A DNA stretch of 10,863 nt, from positions 1-10,863 of the forward strand of contig CAKSIR010000079.1 in assembly GCA_934462775.1 (NCBI GenBank), written 5' to 3'. Both the position numbers and the translations under genes were made by a program. The notes under the pieces are model-generated. The model saw nothing but the letters and a program-made list of their open reading frames with translations, had not been told where the DNA came from and searched no databases. This DNA comes from an uncultured Ruminiclostridium sp. (lineage in GTDB: Bacteria > Bacillota > Clostridia > Oscillospirales > Ruminococcaceae). Position 1 is the first letter of the stretch. Each line of letters begins with the position of its first letter. Below, piece after piece: positions 515 through 10,479 of the stretch.

Positions 515-1264
515 TCACTTTCTAAATACAAATAGATATTCATGTGCAATCAGAAGAAAATTGTATTTCACGCTGTTGGTTTTCCAATAACCGGTTGCCT
601 TACAGTTGTGCTGCTCTTTGATGATAAGCTCTTTGAGCGTAAAACCTACGTCTTGAAAAATCTTCATGACATCAAAGCTCATGGGGATCATGCAGCCCTT
701 TTGACGGGTATCGCCCATGAGAATAGCACAAAACTTACCCTTTTTCAAAACTCGGTAACTTTCTTCAGCAACAGGCTTCATCTGTTCTAGGAAGTCTTTG
801 ACATTGAGTTGAGATAAATCACCATCAATCCCGTCGCTATACTTGATTATATCAGCGTATGGCGGGTGAGTGCAGATAAGATCTATGCTATCATCAGGTA
901 TGCTATCAAGGCATCGAGCGTCACCTTTGTTAATATACACCTTTCCTTTGGCAGGTTCATAGTCGAAATCTGTCTTTTCACGGCAGCGTTCAAGAGCAAC
1001 ATCGTTTATATCAATGCCGATAATATCACGATTAAGTAGCTTTGCTTCAACAAGCGTTGTGCCGCCTCCGGCAAACTGGTCGAGAACTAAATCGCCCTCT
1101 TGAGAGTATCGAAGAATGATGTTTCTTGGTATATACGGCGACCAGTTTCCTCGCCATTTTGCGTCATGGGTAGCCCAATCGCCTCGCTTTGGGAATGACC
1201 AGTGGGTGGTCATTTCAAGTTCGAAATCATCGGGCTGCCATTTGGTTATTTTTTTAAGTGGCAT
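515..1264 (-). CDS. Site-specific DNA methyltransferase (N4-cytosine/N6-adenine type)
   Basis: A 249-residue S-adenosylmethionine-dependent DNA methyltransferase. The AdoMet-binding motif I is D62-QFAGGGTT-L with the following acidic strand GIDIN at 83-87. The catalytic motif IV is T132-HPPY-A, of the (D/N/S)PPY type but with His in the first position, which I recall as usual for this subfamily. The N-terminal WSFPKRGDWATHDAKWRGN stretch and the C-terminal KEQHNCKATGYW stretch also fit it. Motif I precedes motif IV, unlike the beta-class DpnA enzyme that normally accompanies DpnM and DpnII, so this is not a simple dpnA equivalent. The base modified and the site recognised cannot be read from sequence. 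The ATG is 2 bases past the DUF4236 stop, with an AGG inside that gene's last codons, so translation is probably coupled. Confidence 0.9.
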   Translation of the reverse strand: MPLKKITKWQPDDFELEMTTHWSFPKRGDWATHDAKWRGNWSPYIPRNIILRYSQEGDLVLDQFAGGGTTLVEAKLLNRDIIGIDINDVALERCREKTDFDYEPAKGKVYINKGDARCLDSIPDDSIDLICTHPPYADIIKYSDGIDGDLSQLNVKDFLEQMKPVAEESYRVLKKGKFCAILMGDTRQKGCMIPMSFDVMKIFQDVGFTLKELIIKEQHNCKATGYWKTNSVKYNFLLIAHEYLFVFRK

Positions 1265-1266
1265 AT

Positions 1267-2400
1267 TTACCTATCTAACATAATTCTATCAACAGATTTA
1301 AATCCAGCCGTTTTTGCAAATTTCATTTTCATTTCAAATGTACTTACAAAATCGGAAGCATCAATCCTATCAAAATTTATATTTTCAAAGCCATCTCGAT
1401 TAAATAAAACCGAAAGAATTGTAGCATCTGTTTTATACCCTGTTGATGTATCTAATATTTCATCTACTGCGTGTACCAATACACTTTTAACAGGTAATAA
1501 AGAAAACATTTCTCTTGCAAGCCTAATTGCGCAACTACATACATAATCTTGTGTAATATCATAATACATGGTTTTAGACATAGCTTTTTCAGATAATTTT
1601 CCTGTTTTCGTTAAGCTTAAATTGTTGTTTGGCACAACTTCTTTTGATTTTACTTTAAATTCAATTTCAATATAAGACGCATTGTCAGTTCCAAATTCAA
1701 AATCACTACCATAGTCGGAGAAATCTTCAAAGGGATTTACTTCGTTTATCGCTTCCAAGTATGCATCAATATTGCCATTTATAATTAATTCTGCAAACTC
1801 GTGTTCTGATATCCAATTTTGATAATCTTCTTCATCCTTGTTATGCGAAATTGAAATATCATCATATAATTTTTTCTTTCTTTTTTCGCCTTTTTTCTTA
1901 AATATTTTTTCAAGTAGTGTAGGAGTAAATGAGTTGTATAGATTTGTAGCGTTTAATTCTTTTGGTCCAATATTGCCAAGTTCAAAAGGTGGTAGTTGAT
2001 TATAAATGCTATTCCAGTTTACCTCCGGCTCACATTCTTTGTGTACACTTCTTATCACATCAAGATAATTTTCAAATTCTTCAACTTTTAGTCTATTCAA
2101 CTGTAATTCATTTTGTTTTTGTTGTTCTAAAAGTGCTTTTTGTCTTTGAATTTCTTGCTTTCTTTGATAAGCAGACGAATTATAGGAACGCTTACTTGTA
2201 CTACGACGCTTTGCTCCACCTGAGGATATAGAATACGACATTCCTGTTCCTGGTATGCCTACTGTTGTTGTTCTTCTACCTCTGCTATTTACAGAATATC
2301 TGAACCCTTTGCCACCAACGCTTAAACCTATTCCAGAACCGCTAAGATTCATTCTTACGCCTTTGCAAATTTTAATACTTTTTCTAAACCGTAATCCCAT
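1267..2400 (-). CDS. DUF4236 domain protein, unknown function
   Basis: The first 57 residues are a DUF4236 domain: MGLRFRKSIKI at the start, then NLSGSGIGLSVGGKG and VGIPGTGMSYS, the family's Gly/Ser-rich beta signature. Residues 62-120 are basic and Gln/Glu-rich (a likely helical or coiled-coil linker). The rest (to 377) is a mixed domain with a YYDITQDYVCSCAIRLAREMF segment around 285-305. There is no signal peptide, membrane segment or catalytic motif I can name. The ATG has AGAGGA 5 bases upstream and follows the endonuclease stop by 11 bases, so it is co-transcribed with the restriction-modification genes. DUF4236 has no established role that I know of. Its place inside a GATC operon between the nuclease and the second methyltransferase suggests, by inference only, a defence-linked accessory role. 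Confidence 0.88.
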   Translation of the reverse strand: MGLRFRKSIKICKGVRMNLSGSGIGLSVGGKGFRYSVNSRGRRTTTVGIPGTGMSYSISSGGAKRRSTSKRSYNSSAYQRKQEIQRQKALLEQQKQNELQLNRLKVEEFENYLDVIRSVHKECEPEVNWNSIYNQLPPFELGNIGPKELNATNLYNSFTPTLLEKIFKKKGEKRKKKLYDDISISHNKDEEDYQNWISEHEFAELIINGNIDAYLEAINEVNPFEDFSDYGSDFEFGTDNASYIEIEFKVKSKEVVPNNNLSLTKTGKLSEKAMSKTMYYDITQDYVCSCAIRLAREMFSLLPVKSVLVHAVDEILDTSTGYKTDATILSVLFNRDGFENINFDRIDASDFVSTFEMKMKFAKTAGFKSVDRIMLDR

Positions 2401-2411
2401 AACAATCCTCT

Positions 2412-3272
2412 CTATTTAATTTCTTTTTCAACTATACCATTCTCCAAATCATCAATGGAGTAAATGTGTTCCATAACATCAAAAGTTTCTTCTAGGTTAT
2501 GTCTTGCGCTTGTCCAGCCTGAACCATCAGTAAACCATACAAACTCAAAGCCGTCAATAGTAGCAACTTCCTGCGCAATTTGCTTGTAACTTCGTGCTGT
2601 TTCATTTAGCTTTGAGCCGCCACTTGTGTAGAAATTCGTTTCAATGCCATAAATACAATTGTCAGTCTTGATAATGAAGTCAAATCTCTTTTCAGCTTTG
2701 CCGCTGTTAGAGATCGCCGAGAGGTCAATATCCCATAGTGCTGTTATTTCGTGGATATACATTTCCTTAAAATAGGTCTTGCCTTTAACAAATCCAGCCT
2801 TAACTATAAAGCTCTCGACCAAATCTTCCATCAGATGACCGCCGCGATTTTTGCGACCGTTTGAGTCTAAACCAGTTTCAACACCGGTAACATAATCAAC
2901 GAGAGTATGAATTATATGGTTCTCGAGCAGTTCAAACAACCCGGTTTTACGCATAAATACTGCGTACTGTTCCGGAGAGTAGTTAGCCTTCTTGAAATCA
3001 TACGAAAACTCACCATCGCCGTCAATAGCGTAGATCTCGTTTGCCCTTACTGCGAGCAGAATAGGAATACATTTCAGCGTTTCAGGATATTTCGCAATAA
3101 TATTTTTGAAATCATCCTCTACATTTTTTGAGCCGATGAGGGAGTTGAGGATATTAAGTTCAACCTTGATTTCATTGACATTGCGGTACACCTTGTCAAA
3201 GTCTATGTAGTAGTCATAGCTTGCAATGCTTTTATGAAACTTTGATAACCAATCTGTAAAATTACGTTTCAT
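2412..3272 (-). CDS. dpnB: Stand-alone DpnII endonuclease from an internal start (alternative product)
   Basis: Inside the fused frame an ATG at 3272-3270 opens a 286-residue protein that matches DpnII almost end to end, starting MKRNFTDWLSKF and reading through KVYRNVNEIKVELNILNSLIGSKN. DpnII of Streptococcus is about 288 residues and begins in the same way, so this Met is the ancestral start. It keeps an AAGGAG ribosome site 9 bases upstream (see 3282-3287). The product would cut unmethylated GATC and leave 5'-GATC ends. Whether it is made separately, besides the fusion, is inference from the retained start signals. Confidence 0.6.
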   Translation of the reverse strand: MKRNFTDWLSKFHKSIASYDYYIDFDKVYRNVNEIKVELNILNSLIGSKNVEDDFKNIIAKYPETLKCIPILLAVRANEIYAIDGDGEFSYDFKKANYSPEQYAVFMRKTGLFELLENHIIHTLVDYVTGVETGLDSNGRKNRGGHLMEDLVESFIVKAGFVKGKTYFKEMYIHEITALWDIDLSAISNSGKAEKRFDFIIKTDNCIYGIETNFYTSGGSKLNETARSYKQIAQEVATIDGFEFVWFTDGSGWTSARHNLEETFDVMEHIYSIDDLENGIVEKEIK

Positions 3273-4340
3273 GATTAAGCGCTCCTTAAGATTAGTGTAA
3301 ATGTTGTTTATATCATTTTGTAAACAATATTTTATTATTTCAATAAAATCATGAATATTCGAAAAATAATTCGGATACGCTTTTTTTAGCGCTTCAAAAG
3401 AAGTTGCTCTTACGAGCACCACATTATTGTCGCTATTTAATTCTAATGAATGATATTTTTCGTTAGCTTCGTCAACTTTACTTGGTTGATACTTGGATAT
3501 TACTAGTTTGTTTAATTTGTGCTCTAAACACAGAAGAAAATATGATTCGTCATCTTTATTCGAGCCCTGCATATCTGTTATCACTTGCACAGCGTTTAAA
3601 AAGTCCAAATAATTATATTGGGCATTTAACGATTCAATCTCATGTATTATTTCGTCTATATCATTGGGAGTACCGAAGACCAGAGGCTGTTGTTCGATAT
3701 ATGCAAATAAAGATGATATTAGGGCAAAGAATCTATTAATATCTTTTGAGCCTTGACCTGCTTTCAAATTTTGTTTTAAATAGATTCCCATCGTTTCTAC
3801 TGCAGTTGCCCAAATGTGTTGAAGATGGGTGCGAATTTGTATTTCAATTAGCATACCATCATATTCACTTTTTTCACTATGATACTTGTATATCAAGTGC
3901 ACACCTCTATATCCACTATTTTGAGGCTGTTTTATATAATCAAATTCTTTTTTTAACTCATGCTTAATACTTGAATTTTTGTATTTTTCTGAATATTCAT
4001 ATACTTTTTCAACTGAATTGGTAATTAATCTACATCCCCCAAAATCTTGCATTCTAGATAAACTCATATCTGGAAATCTTTTCATTTTTTCGATTATAGA
4101 ATCTAATCTTTTTAGTCGTTCAGCTACTATGCAGTAATTATCATTAGAGGAATTTTTTTTCAAATGCTTAAATATATAATACAGAGGATAAGCATGAGCT
4201 TCACGCCAATTGTTTACAATTTTAACAGCTTCGTTATATTCATAACTATTATCATCAAACTCAGTTATTTGTTTTCCCGCTTTTTCGATTTGTTTTTTCG
4301 AATAATTAACAGTTGTCCAATTAGGTTTTGGAATTCCCAT
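2412..4340 (-). CDS. RelA/SpoT synthetase domain fused to DpnII-type GATC restriction endonuclease
   Basis: One uninterrupted 642-codon frame joins two families. Residues ~45-195 carry RelA/SpoT pyrophosphokinase motifs: R75-x-K77 and S81-IIEK, M97-QDFGGCR-L (metal-binding D99), a GYRGVH segment around 143-148 (purine-stacking Tyr144) and IEIQIRT with E166, then ATAVE (E182). None of the key synthetase residues looks lost, and no HD hydrolase domain is present. Residues ~200-356 resemble the helical C-terminal part of stand-alone members. Residues 357-642 are a complete DpnII/MboI endonuclease: KNVEDDF, LVDYVTGVETGLDSNGRKNR, IDLSAISN, KRFDFIIK (D554), GIETNFY (E567), SGGSKLNETARSYK. I chose the ATG at 4340, 6 bases after GAGGTG, over a GTG at 4349 that lies in the ribosome site. 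It starts 10 bases after the dam stop. DpnII proteins are normally ~288 residues without this N-terminus. Confidence 0.92.
   Translation of the reverse strand: MGIPKPNWTTVNYSKKQIEKAGKQITEFDDNSYEYNEAVKIVNNWREAHAYPLYYIFKHLKKNSSNDNYCIVAERLKRLDSIIEKMKRFPDMSLSRMQDFGGCRLITNSVEKVYEYSEKYKNSSIKHELKKEFDYIKQPQNSGYRGVHLIYKYHSEKSEYDGMLIEIQIRTHLQHIWATAVETMGIYLKQNLKAGQGSKDINRFFALISSLFAYIEQQPLVFGTPNDIDEIIHEIESLNAQYNYLDFLNAVQVITDMQGSNKDDESYFLLCLEHKLNKLVISKYQPSKVDEANEKYHSLELNSDNNVVLVRATSFEALKKAYPNYFSNIHDFIEIIKYCLQNDINNIYTNLKERLIMKRNFTDWLSKFHKSIASYDYYIDFDKVYRNVNEIKVELNILNSLIGSKNVEDDFKNIIAKYPETLKCIPILLAVRANEIYAIDGDGEFSYDFKKANYSPEQYAVFMRKTGLFELLENHIIHTLVDYVTGVETGLDSNGRKNRGGHLMEDLVESFIVKAGFVKGKTYFKEMYIHEITALWDIDLSAISNSGKAEKRFDFIIKTDNCIYGIETNFYTSGGSKLNETARSYKQIAQEVATIDGFEFVWFTDGSGWTSARHNLEETFDVMEHIYSIDDLENGIVEKEIK
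3282..3287 (-). promoter_or_regulatory. Internal Shine-Dalgarno AAGGAG for DpnII start
   Basis: On the minus strand AAGGAG is followed after 9 bases by the ATG at 3272. It lies within codons for Leu-Lys-Glu-Arg (CTT AAG GAG CGC) of the fused protein. It is one of the best ribosome sites in the operon and sits exactly where the DpnII family starts, so it is unlikely to be chance. It would allow free endonuclease to be made from the same message as the fusion. Confidence 0.65.
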
Positions 4341-4350
4341 GTGATTCACC

Positions 4351-5238
4351 TCAACAATTACAAATCAAAAGTTCATTCACATTACCCCTGCCCGAAGCCT
4401 TGCTGTTTATCATACGCTTTGCAGAAACACGCATAATCGTATAGCTTGAATACAGGTCATCAAAAAAGCTGTCGCTTTCATCGCTGTTCTTAGGGTCTGA
4501 GTTGCTGACGACCACCCTTGCACCCCTTGCCGATATTTCATCAACAAACTTGCCCAGTTCAATCTGCTGTTTATCGCCAAACTCATTCTCTGAATAAGAA
4601 GTGAATGAGGCTGTTGCGGTAAGTGGGCGATAGGGAGGGTCAATATAAACAAAGGTATTCTCGTCAATATAATTGGCACATTCGCTGTAATCTCCGCATT
4701 TTATCTGAACATTCTTAAGAAGTTTACTGATAAATTGTAAGTTTTCAGCATCGCAGATAGTCGGATTTTTATATGCGCCCATAGGGACATTGAAAAGTCC
4801 CTTGCTGTTTACACGATACAAGCCGTTGAAACAGGTCTTGTTAAGGAAAATGAACAACGCCGCTTTTTCAAGGTTAATCTGCTCATCACCATTTACTTTT
4901 AAATCGTTAAAACGCTCACGCTTAGCAAGATACATAGTTTTGCGGTCGTCATTGTTATTCACCCAGAAACTTTCCTGCATTTCAGAAAGCATTTCTATAA
5001 GCTCGTCAACATTATTTTTTATCTGTGAATATGTATTTGCAAGCTCGGCATTTATATCGTTTATCAGTACTTCCTTTGGCTGAAAGTTCGCAAGCACATC
5101 AAGTAGTACCGCACCGCCGCCGACAAATGGTTCGCAGTATTTATCTATTATTTCGGGGTATTTTGTCCGAATTTCATTAAGTAACTGGCTTTTTCCGCCC
5201 GCCCATTTAATAAACGGCTTGACTGTTGTATATTTCAT
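4351..5238 (-). CDS. dpnM: DNA adenine methyltransferase, Dam/DpnM type (GATC)
   Basis: A 295-residue alpha-class (D12) N6-adenine methyltransferase. Motif X is F9-IKWAGGK-SQLL, motif I is E36-PFVGGGAVLLD, the family-typical NKTCFNGLYRVNSKGLFNVPMG segment covers ~133-154, and the catalytic motif IV is D200-PPY-203. C-terminal NVNELLICN is also standard. Together with the DpnII nuclease domain next to it, the target is almost certainly the adenine of GATC, protecting the host from that nuclease. The ATG at 5238 is chosen because GGAG lies 8 bases upstream. An in-frame GTG at 5247 overlaps that ribosome site. It is the first gene of the operon, behind the promoter at 5280-5308, an order that gives methylation before restriction. 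Confidence 0.95.
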   Translation of the reverse strand: MKYTTVKPFIKWAGGKSQLLNEIRTKYPEIIDKYCEPFVGGGAVLLDVLANFQPKEVLINDINAELANTYSQIKNNVDELIEMLSEMQESFWVNNNDDRKTMYLAKRERFNDLKVNGDEQINLEKAALFIFLNKTCFNGLYRVNSKGLFNVPMGAYKNPTICDAENLQFISKLLKNVQIKCGDYSECANYIDENTFVYIDPPYRPLTATASFTSYSENEFGDKQQIELGKFVDEISARGARVVVSNSDPKNSDESDSFFDDLYSSYTIMRVSAKRMINSKASGRGNVNELLICNC

Positions 5239-5279
5239 AAACACCACTCCGGAACGAAAATTATTTTTATTTGATTATA

Positions 5280-6148: not shown

Positions 6149-7552
6149 TCAGTTTTTTCTTTGATTACATGATGTTTGTCCTTTATAAGATATGTAACCG
6201 TAGGGTAATTTGCTTTGAAGCTTGTCTATCTGAGATTGGTCTATATCGTTGTTGCCATCCAAACCCAACCATGTCAGATTTGTAAGTCCGCTAAGGGGGC
6301 TTATATCACTGATTTGATTAACATACAAATACAAAGATGTCAGATTTGTAAGTCCGCTAAGAGGGCTTATATCACTGATTTGATTACGCTGCAAATCCAA
6401 AACTGTCAGATTTGTAAGTCCGCTAAGAGGGCTTATATCACTGATTTGATTATCATTCAAATACAATTCTGTCAGATTTGTAAGTCCGCTAAGGGAGCTT
6501 ATATCACTAATTTGATTACTGTCTAAAAGCAAATATGTCAGATTTGTAAGTCCGCTAAGGGGGCTTATATCATTGATTTGATTATCCGGCATCCACAAAT
6601 CTGTCAGATTTGTAAGTCCGCTAAGGGGGCTTATATCACTGATTTGATTGCACCACAAATTCAAATATGTCAGATTTGTAAGTCCGCTAAGGGAGCTTAT
6701 ATCACTGATTTGATTATCATACAAATTCAAACTTGTCAGCTTTGTAAGGCTGCTAAGGGGGCTTATATCACTGATTTGATTGCACCACAAATTCAAATAT
6801 GTCAGATTTGTAAGTCCGCTAAGGGAGCTTATATCACTGATTTGATTACTCATCAAATCCAAATCTGTCAGCTTTGTAAGGCTGCTAAGGGGGCTTATAT
6901 CATTGATTTGATTTTTAGACAAATCCAAATATGTCAGATTTGTAAGTCCGCTAAGGGGACTTATATCACTGATTTGATTACTCCACAAATTCAAATATGT
7001 CAGATTTGTAAAACTGCTCAAAAAACTTATATCAGTAAGGTTTTTTGATGATAAATCAAGTTTTGTTATATCTGTACGGTATTCTTTTCCGCCAATTACT
7101 ACAACTTCCGTATCGCTTTCTGTTTCCTTAGTTGTGGTAGTTTCAGGAACGGTAGTAGTTTCCGGGGTCGTTGTAGTTTCCACCGCCGTCGTAGTTTCCG
7201 CCGCAGTCGTAGTAACAACCGCCGCTGTTACCTCCACCTTTTCAAACCTGCTGTCGCCCGTTATTTCAAGCGCTTTCAGCCTTGTTTCTTCCGCCTTGTC
7301 ATAATCTCCCAAAGCCTCATAAGCCGCAATAAGTCCCTCGTAAGCGTCTGCGTTCATCGGGTCAACCTCAATTACACGCTGAAATTCTATTACCGCCTGC
7401 TCATAGTTCAGCTCGTCAAGATACCGCTCCGCAAGGGAGAGAATTTTTGCGGGAGAATTGTTTACGCTAACTACAGTTATTGTCGACACAGCGGCGATAA
7501 TTGCCGCTGCGAGGACTGCTATTATGATTATTAGATTTTTCTTTGATTTCAT
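6149..7552 (-). CDS. Membrane-anchored TPR and leucine-rich-repeat surface protein
   Basis: 467 residues. Residues 6-30 are one hydrophobic segment after a basic KSKK, a signal anchor with no lipobox. Residues ~34-98 form a TPR-like helical pair (AERYLDELNYEQAVIEFQRV, then DPMNADAYEGLIAAYEALGDYDKAEE). Residues ~109-147 are a Thr/Glu/Pro-rich wall-spanning type linker. Residues 160-190 are an LRR entry cap (LDLSSKNLTDISFL), 191-432 are eleven 22-residue LRRs of internalin/SDS22 type (NQISDISPLSGLTNLT core), and 433-467 an exit cap. There is no LPXTG sorting motif. The likely role is binding a protein or glycan outside the cell; the ligand is unknown. The ATG has AAGGA 8 bases upstream. The last 11 residues (KGQTSCNQRKN) are read-through past a lost ancestral stop. 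Upstream promoter at 7757-7784. Confidence 0.9.
   Translation of the reverse strand: MKSKKNLIIIIAVLAAAIIAAVSTITVVSVNNSPAKILSLAERYLDELNYEQAVIEFQRVIEVDPMNADAYEGLIAAYEALGDYDKAEETRLKALEITGDSRFEKVEVTAAVVTTTAAETTTAVETTTTPETTTVPETTTTKETESDTEVVVIGGKEYRTDITKLDLSSKNLTDISFLSSFTNLTYLNLWSNQISDISPLSGLTNLTYLDLSKNQINDISPLSSLTKLTDLDLMSNQISDISSLSGLTNLTYLNLWCNQISDISPLSSLTKLTSLNLYDNQISDISSLSGLTNLTYLNLWCNQISDISPLSGLTNLTDLWMPDNQINDISPLSGLTNLTYLLLDSNQISDISSLSGLTNLTELYLNDNQISDISPLSGLTNLTVLDLQRNQISDISPLSGLTNLTSLYLYVNQISDISPLSGLTNLTWLGLDGNNDIDQSQIDKLQSKLPYGYISYKGQTSCNQRKN
6153..6247 (-). repeat. Direct repeat, copy 1: 3' end of LRR gene plus relic of next gene's start
   Basis: These bases match 7536-7631 closely, about 1.38 kb away. 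On the minus strand the shared unit reads exit cap (IDQSQIDKLQSKLP), end of gene, ribosome site, start codon and first codons. In this copy one T of the ancestral TAA stop is missing, and the next gene's ATG is followed by TAA instead of an AAA codon. The downstream paralogue is therefore dead, and the LRR gene ends 11 residues later than its ancestor. Confidence 0.8.
6257..6982 (-). repeat. Eleven tandem 66-bp repeats encoding 22-residue LRRs
   Basis: Each unit has about 48 nearly invariant bases (coding NQISDISPLSGLTNLT) and about 18 variable bases coding the xLxLxx strand. Two sub-types of framework alternate: one with a KLT and SSL variant (seen near 6735 and 6870) and the common GLTNLT one. 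Two units with identical variable segments (YLNLWC) lie 132 bp apart, near 6650 and 6782, which marks a two-unit duplication. The pattern looks like a CRISPR array at first sight but is in-frame coding sequence. Confidence 0.93.
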
Positions 7553-7631
7553 AATGTTTGTCCTTTAATAAGATATGTCACAGTCGGGTAATTTGCTTTG
7601 AAGCTTGTCTATCTGGGATTGGTCTATATTG
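7536..7631 (-). repeat. Direct repeat, copy 2: intact junction between two LRR genes
   Basis: This is the partner of 6153-6247. Here the ancestral arrangement is kept on the minus strand: exit cap ending LPDCDISY, TAA stop (7567-7565), AAGGA, then the ATG (7552) of the intact LRR gene. Two junctions of the same form show that the locus was a head-to-tail array of at least three LRR genes. Confidence 0.8.
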
Positions 7632-7729
7632 TTTCCAATCAATTCCAAATCCGTCAGATTTGTAAAACTGCTCAAAAAACTTATATCAGTAAATTCCCCG
7701 CCTAATAAACTAACTTCCTCGCCATCAAT
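7565..7729 (-). pseudogene. LRR paralogue relic reduced to entry and exit caps
   Basis: Read on the minus strand this gives IDGEEVSLLGG, then FTDISFLSSFTNLTDLELIG, then NNIDQSQIDKLQSKLPD and a stop. The first part matches the GGKEY and entry-cap region of the intact gene at its residues ~153-187, and the last part matches its exit cap. All eleven 22-residue repeats, and the whole anchor, TPR and linker region, are missing. A TAA (7732-7730) closes the frame just upstream. No start codon with a ribosome site is present, so it is very probably untranslated and now serves as the leader of the intact LRR gene. Confidence 0.75.
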
Positions 7730-7756
7730 TTAATAACGGTTGTAAATATATGTAAT

Positions 7757-7970: not shown

Positions 7971-9401
7971 ATGAACAAAATAGTATTCGACCTATCCGTA
8001 GCTGACACCAACAATTTTAAGATTTCACCAATCGATAGAGCACTTGCAATTGCAGAGTCAAGGAAACTGCAAATAACAGAAAGTCTAAAAACAATAAAAG
8101 TTATAAAACCAGAATGCGATGAACTTGATTACGCATTGGCGGCTGCGTCCGGAGCGCTGTGCGGTATTATTGACATTTTTTTGGTTGGAATCCCAAAGAA
8201 ATCCGTACTGGGATCCATATCAGACAAATGGTTTGCAGATAAGACAAAAGCGTTTGCAAAATTATGCGGATGGAAAGGAAACGACAAATTATCGTCCGCG
8301 ATTTTATTCCTTGAAAAGAATTTCAAGGTTTCCTATGACCAAAATGGACTTGGTGTATCAACAAGCGAGGTCTATGACCTTTACCCTTCAAATCATCATT
8401 TCAAATCGCTTGGACATAACCCAACGCTGTTAGGACTATTCTTTTCCATACTAGACCAATATACAAATTCATCAGATTTTGTTTCTGTCGGAAATCATAT
8501 CTCCGTAAAAAATACATCTGCTGTCCCGGAGCTTAAAGGGGAAAATATTGTACAAAAGATCTTTTTTGCATTTGTAAATTGGATAGGACATCTCATGTCG
8601 GATGCCTCTGGTTCGTCAAGCGGTAAAGGCAGAGGAACAGGAATACCGTCCCCCTTGCTTTGCTGGACCAACGACATAATCGTTTTAAAATCAAAGCTCG
8701 GGCTCTCACACACTGACTTTATAAACCAGATAAACGAACTTGCTGTAACTATATACAAAAATGGATTTGACATACGCTTTCAAGCTGCGCAGTCTATCCC
8801 TGTTCTCATCAATGAAATGCTTGTGCGTTTTATATACTGTATCAGACGATTTGTAAAACTTTACAGCGAATCAAAGAGATTGCCACAAATAAAACAGTGC
8901 CTGATGGAGTCCTACAGCCTTTCCGATAATCCAACGCTCAGCAGAATGCTGGCAGTGGCTCACGGAACATTCTGCATTATGGATGTGGGGGATGCCGCTA
9001 TCCAAGGCTTTGTTAAAGGCGGCGGTACATTCAACCCGGTAGAATTTCTGCTTAGAATTAACATTACGGGAATATGCCGATTTACCGTTTCCCTTTACGG
9101 TGAAGTAAAAAAATCAATTTTTACTCATAATGCAGAGCGTGATATAATTATACTGCATTTTGAAAATATACAAATAAAGGATTATATTGAATCCTTGCAA
9201 AAACTCTCACATAAGTATGACGTCAAAGCTATTTACCAATCCATTGAAAGCTTTAAATCTCAAAACAAGTATGCGAAATCATTGAAAAAAACCGTTGAAT
9301 TAGCAAATAAGTGGGATATACCTCACGATGAAATAATACATAATATAAAAGAGCTTGACAAAACAATCTATGAGGACTTAAAAAATGGGCGAATCAGGTA
9401 A
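7971..9401 (+). CDS. Conserved-looking protein of unknown function, first gene of a two-gene operon
   Basis: 476 residues; I cannot name the family. Visible features: a hydrophobic Gly/Ala stretch at 54-73 (DYALAAASGALCGIIDIFLVG), a HNPTLLGLFFSILDQYTN segment at 149-166, a Trp/His-containing helix FVNWIGHLMSDASGSSSGKG at 201-220 running into a Gly/Ser-rich loop RGTGIPSP, a second repeated-type motif NPTLSRMLAVAHGTFCIMDVGDAAIQGF at 320-347, and a helical charged tail from ~385. The two NPTL motifs suggest an internal duplication or two similar lobes. There is no signal peptide and no nuclease, NTPase or methylase motif. It has its own promoter and GAGG site and overlaps the next gene by 17 bases, so the two products are probably made in a fixed ratio and may act together. 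Proximity to restriction genes suggests defence (inference). Confidence 0.88.
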   Translation: MNKIVFDLSVADTNNFKISPIDRALAIAESRKLQITESLKTIKVIKPECDELDYALAAASGALCGIIDIFLVGIPKKSVLGSISDKWFADKTKAFAKLCGWKGNDKLSSAILFLEKNFKVSYDQNGLGVSTSEVYDLYPSNHHFKSLGHNPTLLGLFFSILDQYTNSSDFVSVGNHISVKNTSAVPELKGENIVQKIFFAFVNWIGHLMSDASGSSSGKGRGTGIPSPLLCWTNDIIVLKSKLGLSHTDFINQINELAVTIYKNGFDIRFQAAQSIPVLINEMLVRFIYCIRRFVKLYSESKRLPQIKQCLMESYSLSDNPTLSRMLAVAHGTFCIMDVGDAAIQGFVKGGGTFNPVEFLLRINITGICRFTVSLYGEVKKSIFTHNAERDIIILHFENIQIKDYIESLQKLSHKYDVKAIYQSIESFKSQNKYAKSLKKTVELANKWDIPHDEIIHNIKELDKTIYEDLKNGRIR

Positions 9402-10479
9402 TTTAAAAAAGAAATACATTGAAGCTGAAAAAAAGCTGTCGGAAAACATCGAGGAGCTTGGAAAACAAGGCGAAATTCTATATTCAGACTATATACAGAT
9501 TCAAGAGTTGTTTGATAAAATAAGGAATGTTTCATCAACTGAAATAGAAATCTTCAACGAAATCAGAAACTCATATCTCAGTTGGAAGCAGACAGCCCAA
9601 AGCTTAGAGAATCCCAATAAGCACAATCAAATAAAAACAGCGAGCAGTAGTGCTATGGGGATTGGTACAGGAATTGCCGTTGCGTCGGTTTCTCCTACTA
9701 TTGCCATGGGCATAGCAACAACATTCGGTGTTGCCTCAACAGGAACGGCTATATCATCATTAAGCGGAGCGGCAGCAGTCAATGCCACATTAGCGTGGCT
9801 GGGCGGCGGAACGTTGGCAGCCGGAGGCAGCGGTATTTTAGGAGGAGGACTGCTTCTTGGAATGGCAGGTCCTGTTGGATGGGCAATTGCAGCTGTTGCG
9901 CTGGCTGGCGGAGGAATTGGCATCATAAAAAATGTTGCTGACAAAAAGCGTCTTGAATACATATTCGATGAGATTAATGTTCGCAACACATATTCACTAA
10001 ATCTTGCCAACGTCGATATTGAAACCCGTATTGATAATCTAAAAAAAGATCATAAATCGCTTATTAAAGCAATAGAAGACGTCCGTTCTCTCGGAACTGA
10101 TTACAAAAGCATGAAAAGGCCGGAAAAGGCAATGCTTGCCACAAACTTAAATATGTTCAAAATCTCTCAACATCTTTTAACAGATCCAATAGAAGGTTTG
10201 AAACCGGTTTATACTGAAATCGATTTAAACAAATTTATGAATAATTGCAGCAAATCAGATCTTGATGTGTGTCAGTCCGGGAAAAATCTGATTATATCAT
10301 TGGCAGGCATCTTATATAAAGTTAACGTAAAGGAAGAGGATAAGGAGTTTCTGTGGAAAAAAGTGTTCGGCAATAAAAAGTTTTTGTCACAACTGGAACT
10401 AAGCAAAAAACAATTTGACTATACTGTCCTTGATACAGTATCAAGGGCGCTTGAATTCAAATATAAAACTGATAATTAA
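9385..10479 (+). CDS. Coiled-coil protein with long Gly/Ala-rich membrane-insertion-like segment
   Basis: 364 residues in three parts. Residues 5-75 are charged and helical (KKKYIEAEKKLSENIEELGK), a probable coiled coil. Residues 88-182 are almost free of charge and rich in Gly, Ala, Ser and Thr with GxxxG-like spacing (for example TTFGVASTGTAISSLSGAAA and GGGTLAAGGSGILGGGLLLG); this could form a membrane hairpin or pore-like bundle. Residues 183-364 are charged and helical (KKDHKSLIKAIEDVRSLG). No export signal. Glycine-rich segments of this style occur in many uncharacterised bacterial proteins, and I cannot name a characterised family. The ATG follows GAGG by 9 bases and lies within the previous gene's end, so translation is coupled. 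A membrane effector kept in check by its partner is one possible reading, not shown by sequence. Confidence 0.87.
   Translation: MGESGNLKKKYIEAEKKLSENIEELGKQGEILYSDYIQIQELFDKIRNVSSTEIEIFNEIRNSYLSWKQTAQSLENPNKHNQIKTASSSAMGIGTGIAVASVSPTIAMGIATTFGVASTGTAISSLSGAAAVNATLAWLGGGTLAAGGSGILGGGLLLGMAGPVGWAIAAVALAGGGIGIIKNVADKKRLEYIFDEINVRNTYSLNLANVDIETRIDNLKKDHKSLIKAIEDVRSLGTDYKSMKRPEKAMLATNLNMFKISQHLLTDPIEGLKPVYTEIDLNKFMNNCSKSDLDVCQSGKNLIISLAGILYKVNVKEEDKEFLWKKVFGNKKFLSQLELSKKQFDYTVLDTVSRALEFKYKTDN

Follow-up and report, generated by a model that had tools for sequence, protein, structure and literature searches.

The window analysed here, a stretch of 10,863 nucleotides from an uncultured Ruminiclostridium sp., carries on its minus strand a single stop-free frame that joins a predicted CapRel-type fused toxin-antitoxin to a complete DpnII restriction endonuclease. 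The frame starts at an ATG at 4340 and has 642 codons; an alternative in-frame GTG at 4349 gives the 645 codons of the open reading frame (ORF) reading. A first-pass annotation of the same DNA had placed the fusion correctly at 2412..4340, leaving its strand unstated, and had described it as a RelA/SpoT domain fused to DpnII. The features of the gene are as follows.

4340..2412, minus: CapRel-DpnII fusion gene, ATG at 4340, 642 codons, one stop-free frame
3321..4340, minus: CapRel part, residues 1-340, toxSYNTH followed by a C-terminal pseudo-zinc-finger antitoxin/sensor
3780..4121, minus: RelA_SpoT (PF04607) core of toxSYNTH by Pfam, residues 74-187 (77-190 in 645-residue numbering)
3909..3911, minus: G-loop tyrosine Y144, aligned with Y155 of CapRel SJ46
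3366..3377, minus: YPNY at 322-325, the YXXY autoinhibition motif, aligned with Y352/Y355 of CapRel SJ46
3273..3320, minus: linker of 16 residues (341-356), probably former intergenic DNA; the stand-alone CapRels aligned end before it
3287-3282, minus: Shine-Dalgarno AAGGAG lying within the fusion frame, 9 bases ahead of the ATG of DpnII (3272-3270)
2412..3272, minus: complete DpnII endonuclease, 286 amino acids, full-length PF04556, predicted own start at ATG 3272

The two halves of the fusion

The fused protein matched two Pfam families at E<=0.001, and these only: RelA_SpoT (PF04607; 68 bits, cut-off 27) and DpnII (PF04556; 369 bits, cut-off 23). The DpnII match covers 278 of 278 model positions and the frame contains no internal stop, so that a whole DpnII does lie in the same frame, as the first-pass annotation held. 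The synthetase motifs that it called intact are all present (R75-L-K77, QDFGGCR at 98-104, GYRGVH at 143-148 and IEIQIRT at 165-171). Membership of the PrrC family was rejected, neither an ABC-ATPase nor a HEPN domain being found; the PrrC anticodon nuclease combines ABC-ATPase and HEPN parts and is kept silent by the EcoprrI restriction-modification (R-M) complex (passages of PMC3710099, PMC3506569 and PMC12707154).

The CapRel half matches CapRel SJ46 over its full length, by sequence alignment (28-34% identity) and by comparison of the model fold, which is matched up to model residue 342 and chain residue 372. R75, R104 and Y144 occupy invariant columns of the family alignment and correspond to R79, R116 and Y155 of CapRel SJ46, the adenine-binding arginines and the G-loop tyrosine. 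Passages of PMC9712102 describe the roles of these residues, and also a C-terminal helix that anchors the antitoxin domain of CapRel SJ46; the fusion point comes right after this helix. Judged by alignment and modelled fold, residues 1-340 make up an entire fused toxin-antitoxin of the CapRel type and more than a RelA/SpoT domain. The earlier label was right in naming a synthetase but too small for a whole CapRel with its own antitoxin/sensor. The suggested kinship to toxSAS and CapRel is borne out by the full-length match, the toxSYNTH residues and the YXXY motif, and inspection of the predicted structure and active site, which the annotation had named as a check, gave the fold match with R75, R104 and Y144 in place. 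It had left open (p)ppGpp, (p)ppApp or tRNA pyrophosphorylation; by family, tRNA pyrophosphorylation is the expected reaction and alarmone signalling is not. A housekeeping alarmone synthetase of the RelQ/YjbM type was rejected, NF053588 scoring 59.4 bits, below its cut-off of 320. The half also matches the PADLOC candidate system PDC-S33 (model PDLC04999) nearly full length. PDC-S33 was presumably discovered by embedding, to judge from passages of the general account of PDCs (PMC12988326).

The DpnII half is 81% identical to the stand-alone DpnII of a viral contig (L111) and 61-74% identical to the DpnIIs of loci L112-L121. It was poorly modelled, in blocks mostly below 60 in predicted local distance difference test (pLDDT), and a PDB sequence search with it returned no credible relative. 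Other DpnII proteins show further arrangements: P0002 (453 amino acids) is partly duplicated, with two PF04556 stretches; P0078 carries an additional C-terminal TIR domain; and P0062 has an extra C-terminal region without a Pfam match, containing RNKMEH, which we take to be a HEPN-like motif.

A homologue of the same two-domain architecture, which the first-pass annotation had proposed to look for, was found in P0001, a protein of 641 amino acids with 95% identity over 99%, encoded on a separate contig of 173,913 bases. Both domains are present in it, its linker is of equal length, and its C-terminal tail differs from that of the window protein. P0001 stands for a cluster of 411 sequences, of which it is the sole member examined. 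It was also the only protein with both Pfam domains among the best 120 of 1116 matches (E<=0.001; 7998 candidates scored). Because a 95%-identical protein that represents 411 members has the same junction on another contig, an artefact of assembly or base calling is extremely improbable, and the fusion is confirmed as genuine, neither chance nor a lone assembly error. The zone at 3272-3290, where a stop codon or assembly error had been suspected, has no stop in the fusion frame and holds AAGGAG and the DpnII ATG instead. A scan of viral contigs for the junction pattern gave 0 matches, and locus scans with the CapRel half as sole query gave no confirmed relatives.

The restriction operon and the junction

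The fusion gene lies in an operon with three further genes:

4351..5247, minus: dam/dpnM-type adenine methyltransferase, upstream of the fusion (PF02086, 226 bits; TIGR00571, 298 bits, cut-off 115)
1267..2400, minus: DUF4236 protein, 377 amino acids, downstream, between dpnII and the second methyltransferase (GC content at third codon positions, GC3, 0.20; no PADLOC match)
515..1264, minus: type II DNA methyltransferase (N6_N4_Mtase), third operon gene (PADLOC MTase_II, 472 bits)

The CapRel ATG is located 10 bases past the dam stop and is preceded by GAGGTG. GC3 is 0.42 for dam, 0.41 for dpnII and 0.43 for the second methyltransferase, against 0.23 for CapRel and 0.20 for DUF4236. No CapRel match was found in any of the 12 DpnII loci examined (L111-L121 and L123; stretches of 3.3-6.3 kb). 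In these loci dpnII lies beside dam, in some of them across a spacer or another gene: a PD-(D/E)XK-family gene in two (L113:2371-2907 and L115:2374-3012) and a methyltransferase in L121. Insertion seems to recur at the dam/dpnII junction, since PD-(D/E)XK genes occupy it in L113 and L115. A homologue of the methyltransferase at 515..1264 directly follows dpnII in 8 of the 12 loci, and is 81-84% identical in L112, L113, L115 and L116. The lack of CapRel in DpnII relatives, and its GC3 of 0.23 where the operon has 0.41-0.43, make it probable that CapRel entered an ordinary GATC restriction operon by insertion between its dam and dpnII genes. CapRel and DUF4236 appear to be two foreign genes placed at gene junctions of a normal dpn operon, and the DUF4236 protein may be another defence payload.

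Aligned stand-alone CapRels terminate at about residue 340, where the fusion frame has CAA and continues through the linker to the in-frame ATG at 3272, the usual start of DpnII. The linker ends in CTTAAGGAGCGCTTAATC-ATG, and the end of dam with the spacer before dpnII in L112 reads TTTTAAGGAGCGCTAAGAT-ATG. The 10-mer AAGGAGCGCT is common to both; among the 11 loci whose upstream DNA was compared it occurs in L112 only, the remaining loci having other purine-rich sites ahead of dpnII. The RNA fold around the internal start is unremarkable (z -0.65), and the pLDDT of the structure model is below 50 from residue 345 on. We infer from these sequences that the linker is the old dam/dpnII spacer and retains the dpnII ribosome-binding site; free DpnII is therefore probably made from ATG 3272 besides the fusion. 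The join most likely arose by loss of the CapRel stop codon. This is the origin that the first-pass annotation had put forward as its alternative, a stand-alone gene between dam and dpnB that lost its stop, and it is supported by the ends of the relatives near 340, by the 12 loci without CapRel and by the differing base composition.

A stop codon lost in this way may have had no further consequence, the two halves working as before and the join having no function. The CAA where aligned relatives stop, the spacer-like linker with its dpnII Shine-Dalgarno intact and the confinement of the fusion to one narrow cluster all favour such a neutral read-through. The frame is nevertheless open in both the window and P0001 despite 38 differences between them, and a second fusion of a CapRel to a restriction endonuclease exists in another lineage (L022, below). 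A functionless join is therefore a serious possibility, if on the whole a doubtful one.

Elsewhere in the window, on the plus strand, 7971-9401 matches BnzB (PADLOC, 326 bits) and 9385-10479, which overlaps it by 17 bases, matches PDC-M09A (PADLOC, 191 bits); the pair at 7971-10479 makes up a second defence system, of Bunzi-like type, next to the restriction operon. The gene at 6149-7552 encodes a leucine-rich-repeat protein whose repeats are numerous and nearly identical and which also has a stretch rich in Thr and Glu; it is followed at about 7561-7735 by what looks by eye like a truncated repeat copy.

Related CapRels beside restriction genes

CapRel loci were taken from 80 genome contigs (of 127 found) and 24 viral contigs. 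In 11 of these 104 loci CapRel lies 25 bases or fewer from hsdS or hsdR (L001, L005, L007, L008, L010, L016, L018, L024, L045, L063 and L085); both neighbours qualify in L005, L007, L008 and L085, and one neighbour only in the other 7. The CapRel ORF of L063 looks chimeric, its N-terminal part being another protein, and was counted for its distance to hsdR only. Overlaps of 4-17 bases with a neighbouring gene were seen in six (L007, L016, L018, L024, L045 and L085), as placed by a caller whose ORF starts are mechanical and which overestimates some overlaps (e.g. 91 bases in L008). A separate search gave L141 as an additional locus with CapRel this close to hsdS or hsdR. On one viral contig (L085:3528-10247) the order is hsdM-hsdS-CapRel-hsdR, with overlaps of 17 and 4 bases and a Dam/DpnII cluster 4 kb upstream. 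In type I operons two other genes adjoin CapRel: one (L021:4815-5780) encodes a PIN-domain protein, the other (L018:4115-5848) a 577-amino-acid protein without a Pfam or PADLOC match.

The second fusion, L022:1754-6205, comes from an Oscillospiraceae metagenome-assembled genome (iMGMC-582) and encodes 1483 residues, with CapRel at residues 2-342 (PDC-S33 model) and a type I endonuclease subunit, HsdR, at residues 359-1468. Profile search found no hsdM or hsdS within 1.7 kb upstream and 2.5 kb downstream, and no ribosome-binding site was seen by eye at the join. PDC-S33 was matched nearly full length by this fusion and by the CapRels of L045 and L085, the two hsd-housed relatives tested.

A tree of 124 rows was built by a quick method (LG+G4, with long-branch warnings) from ORFs of 320-420 amino acids and every fourth of 120 close homologues, L055 being dropped. 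Of the rows in the tree, 11 are restriction-housed and three are fused; every one of these lies in a single 64-row part (support 88). The pair formed by the window protein and P0001 falls within a 45-row set (support 99) in which 11 of the 13 rows with a named source are Bacillota. Restriction-housing requires 6 changes on this tree compared with 10.5 for shuffled labels, and none of 500 shuffles was as low; it therefore looks to have arisen or disappeared on several occasions within a single part of the CapRel family.

These arrangements bear on the possibility that DpnII directly guards CapRel. The state of the endonuclease (DNA-bound, blocked, or inhibited by a phage anti-restriction factor) would then shift the C-terminal anchor of CapRel and open the toxin, much as PrrC is released on inhibition of EcoprrI. 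The fusion point directly follows the helix that anchors the antitoxin domain in CapRel SJ46; the same order of CapRel and endonuclease recurs in L022, with no hsdM or hsdS found alongside and no internal start signal seen by eye; related CapRels sit within hsdM-hsdS-CapRel-hsdR operons; and a logic of joining toxins to restriction endonucleases has been proposed for HEPN domains (passages of PMC3710099). The linker, however, resembles an old spacer and is modelled with a pLDDT below 50 from residue 345, and DpnII is probably also produced alone. Direct control of the toxin by DpnII is an attractive possibility, and as an account of the fusion we think a coupled guard unlikely. The same caution applies to the wider proposal that CapRel was recruited more than once as the effector of an endonuclease. 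DNA engagement or phage inhibition of the endonuclease would, on that proposal, gate the toxin in CapRel-DpnII, CapRel-HsdR and hsdS-CapRel-hsdR alike, and one polypeptide would cut DNA and then halt translation if cutting fails. It is a conjecture to which we give little weight.

A proposed two-layer antiphage gene and known systems

The interpretation that we favour, and consider reasonably probable, is that of a two-layer antiphage gene, with restriction first and CapRel translation arrest as back-up. The GATC sites of the host would be protected by Dam, and unmethylated phage DNA would be cut by DpnII, both as the free enzyme and at the C-terminal end of the fusion. The YXXY/pseudo-zinc-finger domain would keep the CapRel half closed until a phage that survives restriction makes a protein bound by the sensor; opened CapRel would then pyrophosphorylate tRNA 3' ends, stopping translation and aborting the infection. 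Insertion of the toxin-antitoxin between dam and dpnII, with loss of its stop, would have joined it covalently to DpnII and would keep both layers co-expressed and co-inherited. The neutral read-through described above differs from this interpretation only in the role of the join, and the likelihoods given here are not exclusive: a functionless join is compatible with two working layers.

A further alternative is that the CapRel half is decaying and that only DpnII matters, translated from its internal start. The 38 differences between the window protein and P0001 are divided into 16 in CapRel and linker and 22 in DpnII, one of the latter being the missing last residue; CapRel diverges at 15 of 341 positions and DpnII at 22 of 286 (16 of 280 once the C-terminal tail is set aside), so that amino-acid divergence is no higher in CapRel. 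Neither a stop nor a frameshift has entered the CapRel half in these two diverged copies. Both proteins keep 40 of 40 positions conserved family-wide, and 0 of the 15 changes fall on them, in a count that leaves out ORFs outside 320-420 amino acids (among them L018 and L063) and includes the odd row L055 (16% identity). L100F, K140Q and P222F in the window are changes at consensus sites of close relatives, as decay would produce, and such sites are not avoided. Taken together, decay of the CapRel half seems improbable. In the DpnII half such avoidance is seen: 130 of its 286 positions are conserved to 95% or more in 118 relatives, and 2 of the 22 changes fall on these (P=0.0002); the window protein departs from 2 of the 130 and P0001 from 0.

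Several observations weigh against the two-layer interpretation. The chance of 0 core changes among 15 random ones is 0.15, so that the retention of the 40 positions is by itself no proof of selection within the fused pair. In 120 close stand-alone relatives, a tight set picked as best hits, 118 of 341 CapRel positions are conserved; 4 of the 15 CapRel-half changes fall on these, about the rate of chance (P(X<=4)=0.36). Each of the two fused proteins differs from the relatives at 19-22 of the 118, compared with a mean of 1.25 and a maximum of 8 among the relatives themselves. In view of these two findings the CapRel half, which seems to be kept, may be under looser constraint. The fused protein may also be a minor product, if DpnII mostly starts internally. 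The fusion is confined to one narrow cluster (1 among the best 120 of 1116 protein matches). A protein search of 395 genomes found no site covering both halves, and DNA searches turned up no close copy in 394, 4 and 391 genomes (partly overlapping sets). No type I gene was found within 25 bases in 93 of the 104 CapRel loci. CapRel-HsdR of L022 is represented in the protein database by one sequence only, and is for that reason weaker evidence than the DpnII fusion.

Should the halves cooperate, the gene would be a self-contained defence combining DNA cutting with translation arrest. Coupling of immunity and suicide is a long-standing idea (passages of PMC3506569), testable here in one gene: a single chain with separable active sites and known CapRel residues to disable. 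It also hints that CapRel triggers may be sought in phages that defeat restriction.

Among known systems, the CapRel half comes closest to CapRel SJ46 and CapRel Ebc, with which it shares the full-length fold, the catalytic residues and the pseudo-zinc-finger with its YXXY motif; unlike them it continues past the C-terminal anchor into a restriction endonuclease. The likeness to PDC-S33 is likewise that of the CapRel half, the DpnII half falling to other models. The order dam, dpnII and further methyltransferase is that of the DpnII operon (dpnM-dpnB and a second methyltransferase), whereas the window operon has two additional genes, one of them fused to dpnII.

DarTG2 offers a parallel to the CapRel hsd operons, as a toxin-antitoxin between hsdS and hsdR of a type I R-M system in the RptR island of EPEC (passages of PMC12255303). 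The window fusion differs from it, since DarTG2 consists of separate genes. The HEPN-endonuclease and DpnII-TIR fusions also join a toxin-type domain to an endonuclease; their toxins are of another type, and the extra domain of P0078 is C-terminal whereas CapRel is N-terminal in the fusion. The DarTG2 toxin, too, is of another kind, an ADP-ribosyltransferase. Fusions of HEPN toxin domains with restriction endonucleases occur repeatedly (passages of PMC3710099). The kind is thus known, both as endonuclease-toxin fusions and as toxins within R-M operons (PMC3710099, PMC3506569, PMC12255303), and to this extent the first-pass statement of knowing no described system of this form needs qualifying. 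For the CapRel-DpnII pairing it stands: among the literature matches listed (titles, abstract starts and passages in open-licence PubMed Central), none tied CapRel or another toxSAS either to DpnII or to an R-M operon of type I, and neither a CapRel-DpnII nor a CapRel-HsdR union was found.

The best reading of the proposed two-layer gene is by analogy with PrrC in EcoprrI, with another toxin. PrrC is a toxin whose gene lies in an hsd operon and which acts as a second line of defence (passages of PMC3710099, PMC3506569 and PMC12707154), and both would block translation from within a restriction system, related CapRels taking the same kind of hsd-operon site. PrrC-like physical linkage of toxin to restriction is seen in the fusion itself and in 11 of 104 relatives. 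PrrC is silenced by its R-M complex and is built of ABC-ATPase and HEPN domains, whereas CapRel has its own antitoxin domain. If the two halves of the fusion cooperate, CapRel would be a further back-up toxin of restriction systems, beside PrrC and the HEPN domains.
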